Virus record (IMG/VR): IMGVR_UViG_3300048686_000279
Coordinates: 1 to 38,650 of that record
Source: a virus
Reading direction: 5' to 3' (one strand)
Length of the DNA: 38,650 nt
A program made the translations under genes and the position numbers. The notes beneath the pieces were generated by a model. The model had not been told where the DNA came from. It saw nothing but the letters and a program-made list of their open reading frames with translations, and searched no databases. This document shows positions 1,847 through 27,470 of the stretch, piece by piece (the stretch's first letter is position 1; each line of letters opens with the position of its first letter).

Positions 1847-2245
1847 TTACAGAGCGATTAGCTCTGAGGGATCAAACGTGCTCACAGGCTCGTAAGTTGG
1901 AATCACGTCAGTGATTTCAACGCTTGGAAGCGTTGTGCCAGCATTAGGCATTACAACCACGTTCATCACTTCGCCTTTTGTTGTGAGTTGCTCAACGATG
2001 GTGAATCCCGCCAGTTGAGAGAGTTTAATCTCTTTGCTTCTCAATCTCTTGCTGAGTTCTGTGGAACAAGTGACAAGGTCACTTGTGCCGTCTTTCTTTG
2101 CAAGCACAAGCACAACACGCTTGTTAGCGTCCAGCCAATTGGCCATTGTTGCTGGTCTAAATGTGCCACCTTGACCGACGATTTCTGCAATTGTTCCGAG
2201 TTCTGTTCTGTCTGCTCTTTGATACTGTTTGAAATTCAGTGCCAT
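1847..2245 (-). CDS. 132-aa protein of unknown function
   Basis: This is the largest of the minus-strand leftmost genes and the first one next to the divergent intergenic region. It begins MALNFKQYQRADRTELGTIAEIV and ends with an acidic tail (...STFDPSELIAL). The centre has predicted beta strands (RVVLVLAKKDG, VMNVVVMPNAG) and a basic patch with helix (STELSKRLRSKEIKLSQLAGF). Codon use and a strong terminator just after the stop support a real gene. The A-rich context TTTTTAAAAATGGCA precedes the start. No family was recognised. Confidence 0.75.
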   Translation of the reverse strand: MALNFKQYQRADRTELGTIAEIVGQGGTFRPATMANWLDANKRVVLVLAKKDGTSDLVTCSTELSKRLRSKEIKLSQLAGFTIVEQLTTKGEVMNVVVMPNAGTTLPSVEITDVIPTYEPVSTFDPSELIAL

Positions 2246-2682
2246 TTTTAAAAGTTTTTGTTGTTAATAATAAGTGGGGGGCTACCCCAACATTGCAAAA
2301 TATGCGTAGGGTTGCTGTTGGAAGTACCCTCCCCTCCCATGCACATGATAGGTTTTTGGGTATAGGGGGGTTTTTGGTTCCACGTGGAACATGGGGGGAT
2401 TGTCAGCCTATAGGTTTACATATGGGGGTGTTTTGTAAAGCTATAGGCTTACGGAAAAAAAATTTGGAAGTGTATATGGGGAAGTTGTAACTTTGGGGCG
2501 GAGGGTGGGGTAGTGGAGATAGATGCTCCCTATAGATATATAGTCAATATGTGGTGTGAATGGTGAACGGAGACATCCTCATCCAAGGATAATAGAATGG
2601 GGGAGGTGTATCTGGTTGAAAAAAAGGATATAATATAGCAATAGGTTAAAAGATTGTATTTGAATATGTTAGAATAACCCCC
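2246..2682. promoter_or_regulatory. G-rich divergent intergenic region
   Basis: The leftward 132-aa gene and the rightward operon start on either side of this region. The plus strand is unusually rich in G runs (GTGGGGGGC, TAGGGGGGT, ATGGGGGGA, ATGGGGGTG, GGGGCGGAGGGTGGGG), unlike the rest of the window. CCTATAGGTTTAC (near 2409) and GCTATAGGCTTAC (near 2441) form an imperfect repeat. The parS-like palindrome lies inside. Two weak open frames on the plus strand lack normal composition and are not called. It is a plausible regulatory hub; an origin role is possible but unproven. Confidence 0.5.
2376..2391. promoter_or_regulatory. parS-like centromere site
   Basis: GTTCCACGTGGAAC (2377-2390) is a perfect 14-bp palindrome. 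Read on the minus strand with its flanks it is TGTTCCACGTGGAACC, which fits the bacterial parS consensus TGTTnCACGTGnAACA at 15 of 16 positions. parS is the loading site for chromosomal ParB, a CTP-dependent clamp. No ParA or ParB gene is visible in the window, so host ParB or a phage ParB encoded elsewhere would be the reader. It could instead be an operator for another protein that recognises CACGTG palindromes. Confidence 0.6.
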
Positions 2683-2690
2683 TATCTTTG
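2659..2690 (+). promoter_or_regulatory. Bacteroidota-type promoter of the packaging operon
   Basis: The -33 element TTTG (2659-2662) and -7 element TATCTTTG (2683-2690) are spaced by 20 bp, matching the known TTTG/TAnnTTTG consensus of primary sigma factors in Bacteroidota. The expected transcript start is about 2694-2697, only a few bases before ATG 2701, so the mRNA would be nearly leaderless. Confidence 0.75.
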
Positions 2691-2700
2691 TAACAACTAT

Positions 2701-3048
2701 ATGACGGTGATATTACAAAAACTGAAGAAAGAGGAAGCTGACAGCTATAAGGTGGCTGAAAGGTATTACACCATACTTTCTGCAGTGAATGATTTGAAGC
2801 TGACACAAAGGGAGATACAGCTCCTTGCCTTTACAGCTATTAGGGGTAACATCTCCTATGCTAACATACGCAAGGATTTCTGTGACACATATGGCACCAC
2901 CAATCCTTCTATAAACAACATCATCTCCAGGCTGAAGAAGATGGGGGTGCTGGTGAAGGATGGGACAAAGGTGAAGGTGAATCCCAGGATAGTATTAAAC
3001 TTTGAAAATGACATCACCCTTGAAATCAGACTTGTTCACGGACAATAA
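2701..3048 (+). CDS. Winged-helix DNA-binding protein
   Basis: This 115-aa first gene of the rightward operon has the helical pattern of a winged helix-turn-helix. A helix (residues about 15-32) is followed by LTQREIQLLAFTAIRG, an HTH with a probable recognition helix in NPSINNIISRLKKMG (about 68-82), and a beta wing (VLVKDGTKVKVNP, about 83-95). The pattern resembles MarR/replication-initiator-like wHTH proteins, but no specific family is assigned. As first gene downstream of the divergent region, it may regulate it or take part in DNA packaging. Its 3' end overlaps the HU-like gene by 41 bases. Confidence 0.75.
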   Translation: MTVILQKLKKEEADSYKVAERYYTILSAVNDLKLTQREIQLLAFTAIRGNISYANIRKDFCDTYGTTNPSINNIISRLKKMGVLVKDGTKVKVNPRIVLNFENDITLEIRLVHGQ

Positions 3049-4385: not shown

Positions 4386-4704
4386 AAAAACTACATACAT
4401 AAACACAGAGCTTGAATGGGCAGAGCAACAGCTCACATCCTGGAAAGCTTATGTTGATGCAAACCCACTACATGAACTGAAGGACAGAATTGAGTGGAAA
4501 CCTACAGCCAAAGGAGGCATGCTTCCAATGGTGATAGCTTCCATAGAGGCACAGGGTAAGTTCATACAGGAGACAATGAAAAACTATTTAGCTCTTCTTG
4601 AGGTGGTGGAGAAACTACGTGAGAAAGAGGAAGCTAAGGTGGAAATCAGAGGCAGTGGAGAACTAAGCTCTATGGCTGAAGACTTCCTAAAGAGCAGACG
4701 ATGA
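4369..4704 (+). CDS. Helical protein before terminase, small-terminase candidate
   Basis: The protein is 111 aa with a long, mostly helical body. An N-terminal lysine-rich stretch (MAKIIKKTTYINTELEWAEQQLTSWKAYVD) precedes a central helix (MVIASIEAQGKFIQETMKNYLALLEVVEKLREKEEAK) that reads as a coiled coil and could drive oligomerisation. Its stop overlaps the ATG of the large terminase gene (ATGA). By position and helical, oligomer-prone character it is the best small-terminase candidate in the window. No HTH is clearly visible, and small terminases diverge beyond simple recognition, so this is a hypothesis. Confidence 0.5.
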   Translation: MAKIIKKTTYINTELEWAEQQLTSWKAYVDANPLHELKDRIEWKPTAKGGMLPMVIASIEAQGKFIQETMKNYLALLEVVEKLREKEEAKVEIRGSGELSSMAEDFLKSRR

Positions 4705-6728
4705 GTGAGCTTATAAGCATAGACTACAAAGACTGGTTTATTAACCAGGGGCGTCTGCCTGACCGTGAGTCTGCAGAGTATAAGCCATTCTTTGACTTTC
4801 ATAAAGAGATATGTCTAAACGGGTGTATGATGAATGGTGTATACATCAACCCATTCCTTTACTGGCACCTGAATGTTTGGCATACAGAGGTGGATGTTGT
4901 AGATGAAAGAGGACGCATCTTCCAAAAATATGCAAATCCCCTGTTACGTGATAACGAATGGATTGTGACAAATGAGATAGACAGGGCACAACAAGAAAAA
5001 AAGGGCTTGGTGATACTAGGAATACGACGTTTTGCCAAGTCTGTTTTAGAGGCTTCTTACATAGGGTGGGGCGCAACATTTGATGAAAACTCCCAGAATG
5101 TGATCGCTGGGTTAAATGCCCCCGACATAAAGCTGATCACAGATAAGCTGGACAAGGGCCTCAACTTCCTTCCTGAAGCATGGAGATGGCAGAGAGTTGA
5201 GGACAACTGGAAAAACCAAGTCACCCTAGGTATCAAGACTCGTGGAGGAGAACGTATACCATTCTCCCAAATCCTCATCCGTAACTTGGATGAAGGTAAT
5301 AACGAAGAGGCTATTGCAGGTACTAAACCTCGTAAACTAATTATTGACGAGATTGGTAAGGGCAACTTCCTCAGAGGCTTTCAGGCAGCTGTGCCTGGTT
5401 TCACCACTCCGTACGGATGGGGATGTTCTCCTCTCCTGACAGGAACAGGTGGTGATATGAAGAAATTTATGGACGCTAAGTCCTTAATGTTTGACGCAGA
5501 CAACTTTAACTTTCTTGCTTATAACAATGAAAAAGATGAGAAACGTGTTCATGGCTTGTTTATTTCGTATAAGTATAGAATGGAAGCTAAGGAAGAGAGC
5601 ACGCTCGGTGAGTTCCTAGATCAGCCTGAAGGAAGCGATCTTCACAATGTTAAGATGCTGGTGAGCAACGAAGAGAAAGCTCTTGAAATCACCACATCCA
5701 ACCTAGAACGCTTAAAGAAGGCTGGAGATAGAGTGGCCTATCTAAAAGAAAAGATGTACTACCCACTTGAAGTGGATGACATCTTCCTGAATGAAGACAC
5801 AAACATATTTGACATTGAAGCAGCTAAACGTCAAAAGGGTAGACTGCTTAATCAGGGGCGTACAGGCACTCCTGTTATTTTGTTTCATGATGGAGAGAAA
5901 ATAAGTCACGAGTTCACAGACAAACAACCAATAACCAACTTCCCTCTCAAAAATAGTGACTTAAAAGACGCTCCTGTTGTTATATACGAGTTCCCTATCG
6001 AGAATCCTCCATATGGACTTTATGTGGCAGGGGTTGACCCGTATAGACAAGGACAAGCTGCATACAGCACCTCTCTAGGTTCTGTGTATATTTATAAGAG
6101 AATGCACGACATCACTGGTGAGAAATACCAAGATATGTTCGTAGCTTCGTATTGTGCACGTCCTGATAAGAAAGAAACTTGGGAAGAACAAGCCAGATTT
6201 CTTATTAAGTATTTCAACGCACGTACGCTCTGTGAGAATGATGACATCTCCTTCATAGAATATATGAAAGCAAAAGGAGATGCACACTACCTTGAGAAAC
6301 AACCTGATTGGTTGAAAGAGGTGGTACCTGGTACCACGGTGAAACGTGAGTATGGTGTGCACAGAAGCTCTGAAAAAATCAGAGACTACCTGCACAACTG
6401 CCTCAAGAAGTATATGGAGGAAGTGGTGTACACTGAGAAGGATGAAGATGGTAATGTGATCAAAGAGGTGCTCGGAGTGTCAAAGATATTTGATCCTGTT
6501 CTGCTGGAAGAGATAATTCAGTATAACGATCAGGGTAACTTTGACCGTATCATTGCTGCAGAACTTGCTATTGCTCAGGCTCTTAAGATGGACCCTGTGC
6601 TTGGTAAGGTGGGAGGATCAGCTGACCCTAGAGTGAGTGCAATATTCAAACCCAACAAGAAGAACATGTTGTTCACAGAATCTCGTGGGTTATTTAACAA
6701 AAGGAAAAAAAGTAAACTTTTTATATAA
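4701..6728 (+). CDS. terL: Terminase large subunit
   Basis: This 675-aa protein is the ATP-driven DNA packaging motor and headful/cos nuclease. The N-terminal ATPase has a deviant Walker A (GIRRFAKS, residues 107-114) and a Walker B with catalytic Glu (LIIDE, 213-217), followed by a probable coupling motif region (LLTGTGGDM near 251). The C-terminal RNase H-like nuclease begins with the hydrophobic strand VAGVDPYR, whose Asp is expected to bind metal; a second acidic cluster follows (CENDDISFIEYM). Length and gene order (terL then portal, overlapping by one base) match crAss-like phages. The identity is secure; the nuclease residues are inferred from position. Confidence 0.95.
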   Translation: MSELISIDYKDWFINQGRLPDRESAEYKPFFDFHKEICLNGCMMNGVYINPFLYWHLNVWHTEVDVVDERGRIFQKYANPLLRDNEWIVTNEIDRAQQEKKGLVILGIRRFAKSVLEASYIGWGATFDENSQNVIAGLNAPDIKLITDKLDKGLNFLPEAWRWQRVEDNWKNQVTLGIKTRGGERIPFSQILIRNLDEGNNEEAIAGTKPRKLIIDEIGKGNFLRGFQAAVPGFTTPYGWGCSPLLTGTGGDMKKFMDAKSLMFDADNFNFLAYNNEKDEKRVHGLFISYKYRMEAKEESTLGEFLDQPEGSDLHNVKMLVSNEEKALEITTSNLERLKKAGDRVAYLKEKMYYPLEVDDIFLNEDTNIFDIEAAKRQKGRLLNQGRTGTPVILFHDGEKISHEFTDKQPITNFPLKNSDLKDAPVVIYEFPIENPPYGLYVAGVDPYRQGQAAYSTSLGSVYIYKRMHDITGEKYQDMFVASYCARPDKKETWEEQARFLIKYFNARTLCENDDISFIEYMKAKGDAHYLEKQPDWLKEVVPGTTVKREYGVHRSSEKIRDYLHNCLKKYMEEVVYTEKDEDGNVIKEVLGVSKIFDPVLLEEIIQYNDQGNFDRIIAAELAIAQALKMDPVLGKVGGSADPRVSAIFKPNKKNMLFTESRGLFNKRKKSKLFI

Positions 6729-9310
6729 TGGCTATCATTAGATATACGAAAGATGCTACGATTAGATATGCCTATCTAAACATATTCCCTGATCAGTTCA
6801 AAACTGACAAGGAGAAGCAGGATGAGAGTTGGATAAAGAACACTATGGACTACTTTGCAAACAAGGCATATGCTGAGTATGTAAAGAACCGTGACACCTT
6901 TGTCAAAAACTATGACTTAATTAAAGGTATCCTGAGGATGGAAGACTTCTATCAAGAGCCTCAGGTGAAGAGCTTTACAGATATGATGACAGCTGATCTT
7001 CAGCTTCCTGCATATGTAAAGATGTATTCCATCATGACCACACCAGTGAATGAGCTGGTAGGTGAAATCACAAAACGCCCTGACACATTCAGGGTGAAGG
7101 CATTTGATGATGACAGTAAGGCTGAAGAGCTACAATTTAAGACAGACATTCTTCAACAATATGTAATTGCTCAAGCTAAACAGAAAATTGTTCAGCAGGC
7201 GGCAATGCAAGGTGAAGAGATTGATGAGGAAGAGTTGCAACAGATGACAATGGATCAGGTGAAGGATGTACTTGATAGCTATACGTCTGTGGCTGAGAAG
7301 TGGGCCAACCATGTTCTCACCTGTCAGAAAGCAGAATTTAATTTAAAAGAAAAGTCAGAGGACGCCTTCCGTGATATGCTTATATCTGGAAGGGAGTTCT
7401 ACCACATTTATGAAGATAATTCAAAACTTGGATTTAATATTGAGGTGGCTAACCCCAAGAACACTTGGTTTCTTACAACTCCTGATAGAAAATGGATCTC
7501 TGATCCTACAGGTAGAGCTCAGGGTGCTTATGCTGCTGGTACGGTACAGGTTATGGAACTTTCAGAAATCATTGAAAGCATTCCTGACCTAACCAAAGAA
7601 GAAATTGATCATCTAAGAAGTTCTCTCCAAGACTATGGACTTATTAATGTCCGTGAATCAAATTTGGGTAATCCTGATGCGATACCTGGTACAGATTCAA
7701 TTATGTACGATACGTTTGATCCACTGGTCCTTCAAACCCGTATGATTATCGAGAGTGAAATGAAGGAGAACAACGATGGTCTAAAAGATTTCTTAGGACT
7801 TACATCTAATGTAAGCTCATTTGGATACAAATACGTTGTTGTACGTTCCTATTGGATTAGTAAAAAGAAGATTGGTAAACTCATCTATCTGGATGAATTG
7901 GGTAACGAACAGTCTGTCCTGGTAGATGAAAATTACAAATCTGGCACTGTTCCTACACAACAATCTTTGGAATGGGGCTGGATTAACCAGTGGTATCAGG
8001 GTACAAAGATTGGACCAGACATCTATCACATCAAACCGTTCAAGCTTCTTAACTATTGTCCCATCATTGGTACAACATTTGAGGTGAAGAATACAGAGGC
8101 TAAGAGTCTTGTGGATTTGATGAAGCCTTTCCAGGTGTTGTATAATGTATGTATGAACCAGCTTTACAAACTCCTTGAGAAGGAAGTGGGTAAGGTGTAT
8201 TTGACATCCATCAGACATATTCCTGTTCCAAAGGATGGTGATGCTCAAGATGCTCTTGACATCTGGGAAATGGAAGCTCGTAACAGAGGTGTTGTCTTCA
8301 TTGACGATAGCCCTGAGAACCTGAAGAGTCCTTCTAGCTTCAACCAATTTAGAGATATTGACCTTACACGTACACAGGAAATACAATCTCGTTACACACT
8401 GGCACAACAACTCAAGAACGAATGTTGGGAGCTCGTGGGTATGAGTAGACAACGTATGGGATCTGTGGCAGCTAGTGAATCTGCTACAGGTGTAAATGCA
8501 GCTGTACAACAATCTTATTCTCAAACAGAACCTCTGTTTGTAGCTCACGAATATATCATGGGCCAGCTCTATCAATCAATCATAGATGCTGCTCTATACG
8601 TAGAAAGCAAGAAGCCTCAGTCTACACTCTCTTACATTACAAATGAAGGAGAAGCTGCTTTCGTTCAGGTGAATGGATCTGACCTTAGATTCCGTGACCT
8701 GAAGGTGTTCTTGACAAATCGTCCTGAAGATAAGCAAATGTTTGACGAGCTTAGAGGACTTTCTCAGGCTGTTATACAGAATGGTGGCTCTCTCTACGAC
8801 GTTATTGAGCTTTACAGCACCAAGTCTATGAGAGCTATGAAGAAGGTGTTCAAAGACCTGAGAGACAGACAAATGCAAATGCAAGATCAGCAAATGCAAC
8901 AGCAACAGCAGCAGATCGAACAACAAAGAGAGATTGCAGCTGCTCAGCTTCAACAAGCTCAGCTTCAGAAAGAGCAAGATATGGCTAATGATAACTATCA
9001 AAACGAACTTGATAGAATCAATAAGAAAGAGATTGCCCTTATTGCTGCTGAATCAAAAGCAGGTCCTCTCTCTGATGTAGATGAAAGTGGCACTCCTGAT
9101 GTTCTAGAGATTAACAAACTTGTTGCTGAACAATCTCGTACAGCAAAAGAATATGAAATGAAAATGGCAGATATTCAAGGAAAGAATGTCCAGAATCTTC
9201 AAAAGCTTGAGATTGAAAGAGAGAAGCTGAAGGTGGCTAGAGAGAATCAAAAGAATGACCTTGAGATAGCAAAACTAAACGCTAAGAATCGAGGTGCAAA
9301 ACCTAAATAA
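6728..9310 (+). CDS. Portal protein
   Basis: This 860-aa protein is expected to form the dodecameric ring at the capsid vertex through which DNA enters and leaves. Support comes from the one-base overlap with terL, the size, the alternating helical/beta composition, and a DUF/portal-like core with MTTPVNELVGEITKRPD near 100-120 and GMSRQRMGSVAASESATGVNAA near 575, the latter typical of the region near the portal stem. The C-terminus is an extended Gln-rich coiled coil (about 714-765, many MQ and QQ) followed by more charged helix, as in portal barrels reaching into the capsid. No frameshift or stop was seen. Confidence 0.9.
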   Translation: MAIIRYTKDATIRYAYLNIFPDQFKTDKEKQDESWIKNTMDYFANKAYAEYVKNRDTFVKNYDLIKGILRMEDFYQEPQVKSFTDMMTADLQLPAYVKMYSIMTTPVNELVGEITKRPDTFRVKAFDDDSKAEELQFKTDILQQYVIAQAKQKIVQQAAMQGEEIDEEELQQMTMDQVKDVLDSYTSVAEKWANHVLTCQKAEFNLKEKSEDAFRDMLISGREFYHIYEDNSKLGFNIEVANPKNTWFLTTPDRKWISDPTGRAQGAYAAGTVQVMELSEIIESIPDLTKEEIDHLRSSLQDYGLINVRESNLGNPDAIPGTDSIMYDTFDPLVLQTRMIIESEMKENNDGLKDFLGLTSNVSSFGYKYVVVRSYWISKKKIGKLIYLDELGNEQSVLVDENYKSGTVPTQQSLEWGWINQWYQGTKIGPDIYHIKPFKLLNYCPIIGTTFEVKNTEAKSLVDLMKPFQVLYNVCMNQLYKLLEKEVGKVYLTSIRHIPVPKDGDAQDALDIWEMEARNRGVVFIDDSPENLKSPSSFNQFRDIDLTRTQEIQSRYTLAQQLKNECWELVGMSRQRMGSVAASESATGVNAAVQQSYSQTEPLFVAHEYIMGQLYQSIIDAALYVESKKPQSTLSYITNEGEAAFVQVNGSDLRFRDLKVFLTNRPEDKQMFDELRGLSQAVIQNGGSLYDVIELYSTKSMRAMKKVFKDLRDRQMQMQDQQMQQQQQQIEQQREIAAAQLQQAQLQKEQDMANDNYQNELDRINKKEIALIAAESKAGPLSDVDESGTPDVLEINKLVAEQSRTAKEYEMKMADIQGKNVQNLQKLEIEREKLKVARENQKNDLEIAKLNAKNRGAKPK

Positions 9311-9840
9311 TGTTTGATAGGCTAATTGACCTAATTACTGGATGGTTTGAACAACTGCTTCCCTTTTTCATTGTTAGGGATTTTGAGGAAGCAGTTGTTC
9401 TGCGTTTTGGTAAGTTCCATAAGACGGTTAAACCTGGTTTCCACTGGCGCATCCCATTTGTAGATGAGCCTATGGAACAGCATGTTGTGGTTACAACCAT
9501 AAGCCTAGCTCCCCAGAGTTTGTATACAAAGGACAAACAGAACATTGTGGTGAAGGGGGTGATTAAGTATAGGATAGCTGATATTCAGACATTTATATTG
9601 GAAGTGTATGATGCTCAGGATGCTATATCAGACATGACACAGTCTATTATTAAGAACATCATCATGGACAAAACCCTAGATGAGTGTATAGATCCTGAGA
9701 TAGATAACACCCTCACGAAGAAAGCTAGGGTGGAAGCTAGGAAATGGGGGGTGGAAATTCAACAGGTAACCCTCACTGACCTAGCTCCAATCCGCTCTTA
9801 CAGACTCATAAATGACACGGTGATAAACAAACTTGATTAG
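9310..9840 (+). CDS. SPFH/band-7 (stomatin/prohibitin-like) protein
   Basis: The 176-aa protein reads as a compact SPFH domain. Residues 4-22 (RLIDLITGWFEQLLPFFIV) form a hydrophobic membrane-inserting hairpin. The band-7 hallmarks follow: EEAVVLRFGKFHKTVKPGFH (26-45), IPFVDEP (48-54), TKDKQNIVVKGVIKYRI (73-89), the DE pair in KTLDEC (121-126), and WGVEIQQVTLTDL (146-158). Cellular relatives (HflK/C, stomatin, flotillin, prohibitin) organise membrane microdomains and control proteases such as FtsH. The long C-terminal coiled coil of cellular members is missing. It overlaps the portal stop by one base, so it is made with packaging proteins. Confidence 0.85.
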   Translation: MFDRLIDLITGWFEQLLPFFIVRDFEEAVVLRFGKFHKTVKPGFHWRIPFVDEPMEQHVVVTTISLAPQSLYTKDKQNIVVKGVIKYRIADIQTFILEVYDAQDAISDMTQSIIKNIIMDKTLDECIDPEIDNTLTKKARVEARKWGVEIQQVTLTDLAPIRSYRLINDTVINKLD

Positions 9841-11278: not shown

Positions 11279-12832
11279 ATGGCAATTCAAACAATCCCAG
11301 GTCTAACTGGCTTCACGTATGCTCGTGTCGCATCTATGGACAAGCGTGCTGTGGGTAAGCTAACTGACGCTAACCACCTGGAGAGCTTTCACTCAACTGA
11401 GCCTGCTGATTACGATAAGAAAATCATCAGCCTCTACACACAGAGCTCTCTTTACAGCAACGACTTTCTTGACATGATCAACAAAAGCACGCCTTATTAC
11501 ATTGATAATAATAGCGATGCTTGGAAATGGCAAGTAGCTGTTCCCTACAAATTCCCTAAGATTATCGACATCCCTGCTGCTACAGCTGAGCTGAGCAAGC
11601 CTGGTATCGATGGTCAAGAGTTCCAATTGGTAATTGACACAAACGAGTTCTCTAAGAACGCAATCGTTTCTGTTGGTTCTCGCCAATATGGTCCTCGCTT
11701 TTACGTTATTAAGGATCCAGTTCCTTGGAACATGGGCTTCCTTTATAGCTTCACTTTGGTTACAGACAATCCAACTGTAGACTTCGTTAGCTCTACCTTC
11801 TTGCAAGTGGGCATCGAACTTGAGTTGGTTGATGCTGCAATTGGTGAGTTCGATCAAGATTTGTTAGGTCTTCCTCGTTTGGGTGAGCAAATCACAATGT
11901 TTGAATCTTTGGGTTCTGCATATGGTTTTGAGCACAAAATCACTGAGTGGGCTGATGACAAAATGATGCGTGACTCTGCAGGACGTCCTTTGGATATCCT
12001 TGTATATGCACCTCAGCGTCGTAACCAACTTCCTTTGACTCGTAACGATGTTAAATGGGAGCCATTTATTGAGTTCTGGATGCGTAAGTCTATGCTTGAG
12101 TTGAAAGTTAAGCGTATGATTTGGTCTCGTCCTGGTACTGTTAAGACTAACGGTAGCAAGCAAGAACTTAAGCGTACCTCTGCTGGTGTTTATCACAGAA
12201 TGCGTAATAACGGTAACCTTGTTCAGTACAACCGTGGAGAATTCACTGCAAACTTGATTCGTTCAGTGTTTGGTGACTTGTTCTATCGTCGTGTGGATGT
12301 TAAGGACCGTCGTGTTAAAATGTACACTAACGAAGCAGGTTTTGACGTATTCCAACAAGCTTTGAAGACAGACGCTTTGAACAGTGGTCTTACCTTCATG
12401 GCTGATAGCGGAAACCGTTACATGCAAGGAGAAGGACAACACATCACTTACAACTTTGCATTCGATGCAATGGTTACTCGTGAGACTGGTCGTGTTGAAC
12501 TTATCCACTTGAAAGAACTTGATCTTCCTCAAACTAACCTTGAATTCGGTCAGAACAAGAAGAGCACTCCAGTATTTATGGTATTCGACGTGTCTCCAAT
12601 GTCTGATGGTTCTTTGGTTAATAACATCCGTGAAGTTCGTATGAAGGGTGCACCTTCTATGACTTGGGGTTATATCGATGGAACTCGCCACCACTTAGGC
12701 TTTGCTAAGTCTCAGGGTATGAGCTCTGCGAACAAATTCCCAGGCTACGAAATCTGGATGAAGGATCGTTGTGATGTATTCATTGAGGACTTGTCTCGTA
12801 CAGTTCTTATTGAGGAAATCCCACAATTCTAA
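11279..12832 (+). CDS. Major capsid protein
   Basis: This 517-aa protein is assigned as the HK97-fold capsid subunit from size, position after portal and scaffold, and composition: mixed alpha/beta, few Cys, balanced charge. The N-terminus (MAIQTIPGLTGFTYARV...) and the central region (DLLGLPRLGEQITMFESLGSAYGF, near 198-221) fit capsid proteins of crAss-like phages as I know them. Its codon use differs from its neighbours: arginine is mostly CGT, whereas surrounding genes use AGA/AGG heavily, as expected for the most abundant virion protein. It starts 28 bases after the scaffold stop, with AAAAGGATAACAAA before the ATG, the closest thing to a Shine-Dalgarno seen here. Confidence 0.9.
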   Translation: MAIQTIPGLTGFTYARVASMDKRAVGKLTDANHLESFHSTEPADYDKKIISLYTQSSLYSNDFLDMINKSTPYYIDNNSDAWKWQVAVPYKFPKIIDIPAATAELSKPGIDGQEFQLVIDTNEFSKNAIVSVGSRQYGPRFYVIKDPVPWNMGFLYSFTLVTDNPTVDFVSSTFLQVGIELELVDAAIGEFDQDLLGLPRLGEQITMFESLGSAYGFEHKITEWADDKMMRDSAGRPLDILVYAPQRRNQLPLTRNDVKWEPFIEFWMRKSMLELKVKRMIWSRPGTVKTNGSKQELKRTSAGVYHRMRNNGNLVQYNRGEFTANLIRSVFGDLFYRRVDVKDRRVKMYTNEAGFDVFQQALKTDALNSGLTFMADSGNRYMQGEGQHITYNFAFDAMVTRETGRVELIHLKELDLPQTNLEFGQNKKSTPVFMVFDVSPMSDGSLVNNIREVRMKGAPSMTWGYIDGTRHHLGFAKSQGMSSANKFPGYEIWMKDRCDVFIEDLSRTVLIEEIPQF

Positions 12833-25200: not shown

Positions 25201-27470
25201 TCTATTCTTATAGCACGGTGGACACTGGTTTCCAAGTGCTTGTGGATGAAACCACCCCAGACGTAAGAACAGTGTTTGGTGGTGACACATTCATTAGCAG
25301 GTTTGCATTTAAGACCAAGCTTCCATTCTTTATTGACAACCGTGTGAATGCTCCTGATGACAGTGATATATTCTATGATGAGATAGGTAATATAGCCTAT
25401 CCAAAATACTGGCACTCAGCACGTTCTATTCTTAGAGACTACACCATCACAAGTGTAGGTGTATTGTCAAACATTATATCTTACAAGGCTCACAACTTTG
25501 ACTGTCCAAACAGTCAGTTTGTAGCTCCTGGACAGCCTAAGGATAGCAATCCTGGAAGGACCTACTATGATGGATATTTCTATTTGTTTGCATACGGTAT
25601 TCCTAATTTCTATTGTGAGAGCTCTTACAACGTAGACCTACGTCAAGCTTTCAATAATAGAGAGGGTGATTTCTGGCCTCACGTAAGCACAGGAATTCCT
25701 GATGACTGGGTGCAGCAAAGCTATGTTCCTATTGTTCAGGACAATACATACTACTACAATGTCACATATTCTAAGCAGAATAGAGAGAACACATTTACAA
25801 ATCTACCTATCGACTGGGGTAAACCTTGCTTCACATACTACCCTTTCAGAGCTATCTATTCTGATTCTCAGAATATCGACTCTGATAACAGGGTAAATAG
25901 CTGGTTGATTTACAGGGCCATATCTTATTATGATTTCCCACAGAACTATGGAAATCTTATATCTCTGGACGGAATTCAGAACAAGTCAGTTCTTGCCCGT
26001 TTTGAGAACAAGACACTTCTGTACAACAACCTCCTCACGATAGATACAAGTAACCCTCAGGCAGCGTATGTGGGTAATCCTCAGTTCTTTAGATCAGCCC
26101 CTCCGATTGACTTCGCAGAAACTGATTTGGGATATGTAGGAACCCAAAACAAGATGTTGTTGAAGATTCCACAAGGACAAGTGTCTGTGGATGCTAAACG
26201 TGGTCAGGTGTTCCTGATTGCTGGTACACAGGCTGTAGACCTGTCAGGGTTTGGTTCAGGACTTAACAGGTTCTTTACAGACCACCTAGCATTTGAAATC
26301 CTGCGTTATTTCCCAGACGTACCCACAGATAACCACTTCACAGGAATTGGTATACATGGTGTGTTTGATAGTAAGTATGACAGGGTGCTCATCACTAAGC
26401 TTGATTATGTTCCAAAGAGCAATGATGTTAAATATGATGCTGTAAAGAGAGAGTTTTATGTTGAAACTCGATATGTAATGCCTTCAGAAGATCTTTCATA
26501 CAGTGTGGTTCGTGAGAGAGTGTATTTAACAGATGAGAAATACTTCTGCAACAAGAGCTGGACAGTGTCTTTCAACTTCAATACTAAGAGCTGGATAAGC
26601 TTCCATAGCTACCTGCCTAACTGGTACATTGGTGAGAACAACTTCTTCTACTCTGGTATAAATGGATGTTGTGATGACTTTGATGTGATTGTTGGTGTTC
26701 CTGGACCTGTTCCAACTACCACCACCACTTCTAGTACATCTACAACTTCCACAAGCTCAACCACCACTACAACCACTACATTGAACTGTAATCTTGTAGG
26801 AACTGTTACAGAGACAAACTGTACCCTATCAGGGACAGCTGTGGTAACAGTCCCACCACCAATACCTCCTTGTGAAAGACCCGAAGGTTTGATAGAAGAT
26901 GTATTCTTTACAGGATATAACATCACATCTCCCCCTAGCAATGTGGATTCTACAGGAAGTCAGTCAGACGCATGTAATGCTGTTGCCTACCTGAATACAT
27001 TTGGTGGATCGTATGTGAACGTTGTACCTACATTCCTCACTATCGAATATCAAGGATTGTATATTGGATCTGGAGTGTTTGTGACCAATGGTACAAATGA
27101 TTGTACAACAATCCCTGATGGTTGGTATTTCACAGGGGCTTCTCAATCGGTTAATACAGTGTTCCAAGTGGTAGGTGGGTTGATTGTATACATCACTGAT
27201 TGTACAACTACAACAACCTCTACAAGTAGTACAACAACTAGTACAACCAGCACAACATCTACAACTAGTACAACAACTACTAGTACGTCATCTACAACAA
27301 CCACAACAACAACTGCTGTACCTGTAACTACAACCACTACATCTACTAGTAGTAGTACAACAACTACCACTACAACAGATACACCAACAACCACTACAAC
27401 CACAACAACTGCACTCGATTGCTCGCTAGCTGGAACAGCTGTTGAAGAAGATCCATCATCATACCTTTAA
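22218..27470 (+). CDS. Giant tail protein, tail-stabilisation/muzzle-like, with Thr-linked C-terminal modules
   Basis: This 1750-aa protein begins MAEQEQGNIRQEYNNATTGLNMDQTPNQIPKGKLTYALNA and is beta-rich for about 1490 residues, which would fit beta-propeller-like blades. The conserved N-terminal portion fits the tail stabilisation protein of crAss-like phages. From about residue 1498 a Thr/Ser tract leads to a Cys-containing domain (LNCNLVGTVTETNC..., ending DGWYFTGASQSVNTVFQVVGG...TDC). A second long Thr/Ser tract (about 1663-1730) then leads to ALDCSLAGTAVEEDPSSYL and stops. The last 19 residues repeat the start of the previous module, as if a duplicated module were cut short. It is probably the main tail body with host-contacting appendages. 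Confidence 0.75.
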   Translation: MAEQEQGNIRQEYNNATTGLNMDQTPNQIPKGKLTYALNAAVENYDANSVNYQNEPGNELCVTFPSGFVLIGNHFIQEKNKHIFFITNPDTGDSQIGYMENNDCIYRVIVNAPCLNFNTSYPIHKVAHKITNCTTEIYWTDGYNPRRYLDIDNIPKVLKSGTPFCDPKYTDDLDCNQLKLQPNFNIPQLEVTNVTNTGNLIAGTYQFAIQYSDAQGNPYTSYYSVTNPTPIADEFITSVNFNYAVGKSIILNISNLEDTGLYQYFNLAVIKTVNDITSVELVGTYYIDAVQKEITYTGQNVTQIRLTINDIFEKFPYYDIAQDLTVAQDVLIWDNLTSIDRINYQSIASQIPLLWESWRIPANENYADELNATNLRGYLRDEVYAFEIVFLLKNGKQTDGFHIPGRIKGPAENLQPDVPDTNPDFIGVPDYTSGGVGYSPYWKIYNTGSVLGTSPGYSPAPDYKGPYQYGQFGYWESTDTYPCNKDVWGDLAGQPIRHHKFPDINVSPAYESKIFTGPSGMVMGNDAVFPIGVQIDVQLVSSLIQTSNLTPEQKDDIVAFKIIRADRGTNKSIVAKGILRNVNTYEREEETYYYPNYPYNDLNSDPFLNTTNNAYSQICDGYTVFIDTLVVDPAGGPSFAEVEWTDCNTNKVTKKKLFTIGQHPFCSIGKPTILGPATGKVGLSTYEVWTAQVCNPSPFAFARGGRIEWNDIYTGVTTQWVNGWPTSPVYTLYVVPGTGGPVQIEGPGEICFTGPTLVTGANCKAETPQPGVTEKYRQIFNSPETSFGQPFLGGVLKLESVMFGRGKGHFVEVRDNAKYKLLTEEAQRDALESAEELGDVTTPFNATAMFTAYQAYLTIYINGITRKNYAYSFNSIGDYNYGVGVPDNQGIKQRTLDIARYLIPGVQNVGDLYNINNFQRESSVYLRTDLNKTALPFPDQSPNMLSAGSPIVTDISRFTISERNKCQAPAKEEDMSVVSYYASLKNVFVNQYGQIYSYSTVDTGFQVLVDETTPDVRTVFGGDTFISRFAFKTKLPFFIDNRVNAPDDSDIFYDEIGNIAYPKYWHSARSILRDYTITSVGVLSNIISYKAHNFDCPNSQFVAPGQPKDSNPGRTYYDGYFYLFAYGIPNFYCESSYNVDLRQAFNNREGDFWPHVSTGIPDDWVQQSYVPIVQDNTYYYNVTYSKQNRENTFTNLPIDWGKPCFTYYPFRAIYSDSQNIDSDNRVNSWLIYRAISYYDFPQNYGNLISLDGIQNKSVLARFENKTLLYNNLLTIDTSNPQAAYVGNPQFFRSAPPIDFAETDLGYVGTQNKMLLKIPQGQVSVDAKRGQVFLIAGTQAVDLSGFGSGLNRFFTDHLAFEILRYFPDVPTDNHFTGIGIHGVFDSKYDRVLITKLDYVPKSNDVKYDAVKREFYVETRYVMPSEDLSYSVVRERVYLTDEKYFCNKSWTVSFNFNTKSWISFHSYLPNWYIGENNFFYSGINGCCDDFDVIVGVPGPVPTTTTTSSTSTTSTSSTTTTTTTLNCNLVGTVTETNCTLSGTAVVTVPPPIPPCERPEGLIEDVFFTGYNITSPPSNVDSTGSQSDACNAVAYLNTFGGSYVNVVPTFLTIEYQGLYIGSGVFVTNGTNDCTTIPDGWYFTGASQSVNTVFQVVGGLIVYITDCTTTTTSTSSTTTSTTSTTSTTSTTTTSTSSTTTTTTTAVPVTTTTTSTSSSTTTTTTTDTPTTTTTTTTALDCSLAGTAVEEDPSSYL
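27205..27408 (+). repeat. Thr-codon low-complexity tract (longest copy)
   Basis: The tract consists of ACA/ACT/ACC/AGT codons with recurring words such as CTAGTACAAC and AACTACAACC. Shorter copies lie at about 15838-15896, 18310-18366, 18564-18590, 26711-26779, 27698-27768 and 34783-34845, all in virion-type genes. The similar DNA could support recombination between genes. Confidence 0.8.

Follow-up and report, generated by a model that had tools for sequence, protein, structure and literature searches.

The window under analysis, by which we mean the whole stretch of 38,650 bases, is a virus fragment from IMG/VR. The genes and features that bear on the present analysis are as follows:

1847 to 2245, minus strand: divergent gene to the left of the site, an open reading frame for 132 amino acids with no family match in PHROGs and Pfam
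2376 to 2391, no strand assigned: parS-like site at location A, the 16-mer GGTTCCACGTGGAACA with the palindrome at 2377-2390 inside it; exact, single copy
2659 to 2690, plus strand: putative Bacteroidota-type promoter TTTG-N20-TATCTTTG, 5′ of the HTH gene, seen in the sequence and conserved in the alignment of relatives
2701 to 3048, plus strand: winged-helix (HTH) protein of 115 amino acids to the right of the site, which weakly resembles the phage replication protein O
4701 to 6728, plus strand: large terminase (phrog_6681), the query with which relatives were collected
9310 to 9840, plus strand: SPFH/band-7-like gene, whose homologues carry parS at the equivalents of 9438-9451 (location B) or 9634-9647 (location C)
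11279 to 12832, plus strand: major capsid gene (phrog_11589), whose homologues carry GTTACACGTGAAAC (location E) in the codons for VTRET

The terminase, portal and capsid genes of the window match phage families common to crAss-like phages, and on this crAss-type gene set the window can be counted among them. By terminase, the closest named phages are Leptolyngbya phage Lbo-JY46 (40%) and the Cellulophaga phages phi17:2 and phi4:1 (33%). A Bacteroidota host is likely, because the conserved promoter preceding the gene at 2701 is of the Bacteroidota type. When genome contigs were scanned by terminase, the sole find was a contig of this phage group (DHFP01000064.1) that has been binned in the Clostridiales MAG UBA4821, where it is probably misplaced.

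The intergenic region between the two divergent open reading frames contains GTTCCACGTGGAAC, which forms a perfect 14-bp palindrome at exactly 2377-2390, in agreement with the preliminary description. It is the sole exact copy in the window, and within three mismatches there is one further place, at 27161, against a chance expectation of 0.83. The 16-mer around it differs from TGTTYCACGTGRAACA at the first base only, which confirms the reported fit to the parS consensus at 15 of 16 positions. The figure of 0.00014 expected copies that accompanied this report was calculated correctly (38650/4^14), but it ignores the many known motifs that were open to noticing. On the 3′ side of the parS-like site, the window also holds two near-palindromes, GTCAGCCTATAGGTTTAC at 2402-2419 and GTAAAGCTATAGGCTTAC at 2435-2452, which are flanked by G-runs on both sides; like modules recur in relatives.

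Occurrence and locations of the site in related phages

The terminase search yielded 80 related loci, to which a second query with a distant member added more. Exact copies of GTTYCACGTGRAAC were present in 29 of the 80 loci, whereas 1241 of 1260 control palindromes, obtained as permutations of the half-site, occurred in none. For the degenerate form GTTNCACGTGNAAC, near-duplicates were removed, leaving 86 non-redundant loci with 8-18 kb fetched for each. This form was found exactly in 45 of these loci, compared with a mean of 0.09 and a maximum of 15 for the other 1259 permutations, showing that the palindrome is conserved among related phages and that its recurrence is not due to chance. The B. 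subtilis parS consensus TGTTNCACGTGAAACA likewise has an N at the position that is freed in GTTNCACGTGNAAC (PMC7022226). Thus, the phage site has both the palindromic GTTNCACGTGNAAC sequence and the evolutionary conservation of a chromosomal-type parS. A search for further parS sites in whole records showed mostly one exact copy in each, while the backwards control was almost always at zero. One phage record had two exact sites and a minority had none, the exact site being absent from some large records (G003, G006, G008, G010, G017 and G080).

The site is found at five locations. Location A, that of the window's clade, is intergenic and lies 2.2-3.2 kb upstream of the terminase gene. Upon alignment of 27 non-redundant A-type sites, most core positions displayed a pairwise identity of 0.86-1.0, as compared to 0.31-0.33 for the flanks, and the variation was mainly at the degenerate 4th and 11th bases and at the 1st base. 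Some A sites have decayed (GTTCCACAAGGAAC and GTTCCATATGGAAC). Location B is in the SPFH-like gene, with the codons GGG TTY CAC GTG AAA CTN (PGFHVKLP); the corresponding peptide of A-type phages is PGFHWRIP. Location C is a second place in the SPFH-like gene, GTT TCA CGT GGA A. In a gene tree built without the site columns, B and C were separate lineages, every member of which has its site either exactly or with one mismatch; the window's own SPFH-like gene has neither. Location D, inside a gene for 406 amino acids about 12 kb from the terminase, was seen in one record only (G009). Location E is GTTACACGTGAAAC within the major capsid gene, in the codons for VTRET; the window encodes the same residues at 12473-12487 with GTT ACT CGT GAG ACT and lacks site E.

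In distant relatives, the GTTCC...GGAAC arms of location A are retained around an altered core (CATATG, CACAAG or CACATG), as observed in loci L063, L363, L075-L077, L079, L081, L372, L382 and L386-L389. Either the site has decayed in these loci, or it is one that a different ParB recognises.

No locus combined A with B or C. Among the 64 loci in which all regions were covered, the 24 with an A or A-like site lacked E, whereas E was present in 12 of the 29 loci without A, B or C; in three loci E stood beside B or C, and L014-L016 carry two sites, B and E. This mutual exclusivity of A, B or C and E was significant by Fisher's test (p = 0.003), but not when the phylogeny of the terminase was taken into account by a Pagel-type test (p = 0.34). 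Since the phylogenetic test was not significant, we regard the exclusivity as a suggestive pattern and do not use it as proof.

Selection on the site within genes

The sites within genes made it possible to compare the parS codons with the remainder of the gene. In lineage B, with 73-95% nucleotide identity, a single codon was kept at 20 of 109 conserved residues, while all four constrained parS codons (GGG, CAC, GTG and AAA) were invariant and the one variable base inside the site was the degenerate 4th base. In lineage C (69-92% nucleotide identity), a single codon was kept at 13 of 89 conserved residues, and the site coincided with an invariant run of 12 bp, the next longest run being 5. 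By a sliding count over 14 bases, only one separate segment in each of the B and C genes was equally invariant. The codons of the site thus hardly change although the gene around them has diverged, so that selection acts on the DNA itself. The same peptides are also encoded elsewhere by other codons: in L377, PGFHVK is specified by GGA TTC CAT GTA AAG, and in L394, a sister of lineage C, DIARG is specified with AGA. Both these loci lack the parS sequence in the SPFH-like gene and carry site E. For E the invariance is a circular observation, as loci were assigned to the E group by the motif itself.

The putative reader of the site and alternative explanations

The preliminary description had seen no ParA or ParB in the window and had noted that crAss-like phages lack obvious integrases. 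Accordingly, ParA (PF13614) was absent from all 25 records searched, HTH_ParB (PF17762) from 32 records, and integrases of the family PF00589 from 25 records. PF02195 gave two weak hits only, both in records without a parS site. The phages thus lack a self-contained ParABS system with ParA and ParB in the same genome, and like phage-plasmids they have no integrase in these searches. In loci L322 and L323 (records G008 and G003), which belong to two large relatives without parS, there is a protein of 253-255 amino acids with a weak ParB/sulfiredoxin-type domain.

The sources of host-type parS sites were two chromosomal records that are classed as plasmids, together with a study that mapped parS clusters at the origins of twelve gut species, Bacteroidota among them (PMC10197239). 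The Prevotella record NC_022111.1 (1.77 Mb) has two exact parS sites 744 bp apart and also encodes ParB. The other, NZ_CP081938.1, is a 101,897-base piece of a Riemerella chromosome with ricT, mnmG, pckA and glmM, and has two exact sites 1.9 kb apart beside mnmG. When the Prevotella ParB was aligned to Caulobacter ParB (6T1F), the arginine of its GKSR motif and a glycine corresponded to the parS-specific residues R173 and G201. Since neither ParA nor an HTH_ParB protein could be detected in the phages, host ParB is the presumed reader of the site. Recruitment of host ParB, which the preliminary description had proposed, is plausible because the site is parS-like and conserved in phages with neither a ParA/ParB of their own nor an integrase. 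The sequence evidence strongly favours a parS of the host type, to which host ParB is probably recruited. The part of the proposal that tied its function to the divergent control region did not hold: regulation of the divergent promoters by ParB spreading cannot be the general function, as sites B to E are inside genes in relatives that keep the HTH gene.

The same locations bear on the idea that the palindrome serves as an operator, at which a regulator encoded by the phage would act on the divergent promoters at 2245-2701. Such an operator would suit a divergent intergenic region with two matches to Bacteroidota-type promoters, near-palindromes nearby and a winged-helix gene following. However, relatives retain the HTH gene without site A and have the motif in the SPFH-like or capsid gene instead. 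With the site retained both between genes and inside them, its general function cannot be the local control of promoters, and the operator was rejected on the locations of B to E. Furthermore, the agreement of the motif with the parS consensus of hosts extends to the degenerate positions, which would be unexpected for a private operator, and we consider this explanation very improbable. We also deem it very improbable that a phage protein, for example the small terminase, recognises the site for packaging (pac) or replication. The usual single copy per record and the position of most copies no farther than about 8 kb from the terminase gene would agree with such a site, but D is about 12 kb away, some relatives have no copy at all, and the likeness to chromosomal parS would have to be a coincidence.

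A chance palindrome, combined with codon coincidences in the relatives, is scarcely credible. The controls refute it for A, B and C: the number of loci with the motif far exceeds the control mean, codons are frozen in B and C, and A sites are kept amid diverging flanks. Chance is possible for E alone, which is two synonymous bases away from the VTRET capsid codons and for which the pattern of presence and absence was not significant phylogenetically. Lastly, host ParB could be recruited for silencing or insulating phage genes by spreading, or for loading host condensin, an explanation that overlaps with the preferred one and that we regard as unlikely. In many bacteria, ParB does spread outwards from parS and brings SMC onto the DNA (PMC10197239, PMC12704722). 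Sites at differing places would, however, silence differing genes, and no known condensin was found in the two Bacteroidota studied (PMC10197239).

Beyond this lineage, occurrences in IMG/VR were counted with 16-mers, as counts of 14-mers were uninformative for the motif versus the control. The 16-mer parS TGTTTCACGTGAAACA was present in at least 120 IMG/VR stretches, as compared to 33 for the control palindrome TGTTTCAGCTGAAACA and 5 for TTGTTCACGTGAACAA. This over-representation suggests that other phages may likewise carry a host-type parS, but it is a lead only, because plasmids or host DNA may account for some of the contigs. No relative of the Prevotella ParB was found in the fetched flanks of 80 of these loci (L455-L534). 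Some contigs in this set have up to five copies within about 1 kb.

Proposed function and comparison with known systems

If host ParB does read the site, the host's own ParB-CTP clamp would load at the phage parS and then slide onto the adjacent phage DNA. The ParA-ParB system of the host would subsequently position and partition the non-integrating phage genome, be it in a carrier state, in a phage-plasmid state or during infection. We hold it to be about evenly balanced whether positioning or partition by host ParA-ParB is indeed what the phage gains. If the phage genome is partitioned in this way, a single site at any place would be enough, and an old site might decay once a new one has arisen. 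More tentatively, a whole lineage of non-integrating crAss-like phages could possess one movable host centromere per genome, at times embedded in capsid or SPFH-like codons, by which host ParABS segregates the genome in the carrier state. Such segregation would account for stable persistence in the absence of lysogeny genes. As to how host populations continue to harbour non-integrating crAss-like phages, partition by the host offers a direct and simple hypothesis. The site would also illustrate that a binding site can shift its place while the selection on it persists. In a literature search that was incomplete, we found no report of phages recruiting chromosomal ParB in this manner.

The phage site shares the 14-bp core GTTNCACGTGNAAC with chromosomal parS of the Spo0J/ParB family. 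On the two Bacteroidota chromosomal records these sites come as clustered pairs, whereas the phage copy is usually single, is not accompanied by a phage parAB and is often inside coding sequence. With crAss-like phages (Crassvirales and relatives), the window shares a terminase similar to those of Cellulophaga phi17:2, csAssE-Sib and gut crAss-like phages, but a search of the whole records showed that the parS site is absent from four named phages, crAss-like or related to these, that had been retrieved by their terminase. Phage-plasmids of the P1 type resemble the present phages in having a non-integrated genome that could be maintained by partition; P1, however, has its own ParA and ParB, which were not found here. 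The closest parallel in terms of borrowing is SGI1, which has no par genes, bears parS and is stabilised by ParA and ParB of the IncC plasmid (PMC10954446). In both cases a mobile element with parS and without parAB would have its copies read by the ParABS system of a partner, but SGI1 borrows from a plasmid and the presumed donor for the phage is the host chromosome. While this function has been shown for SGI1 and is inferred for the phage, SGI1 shows, by analogy, that the borrowing of a partition system can work.
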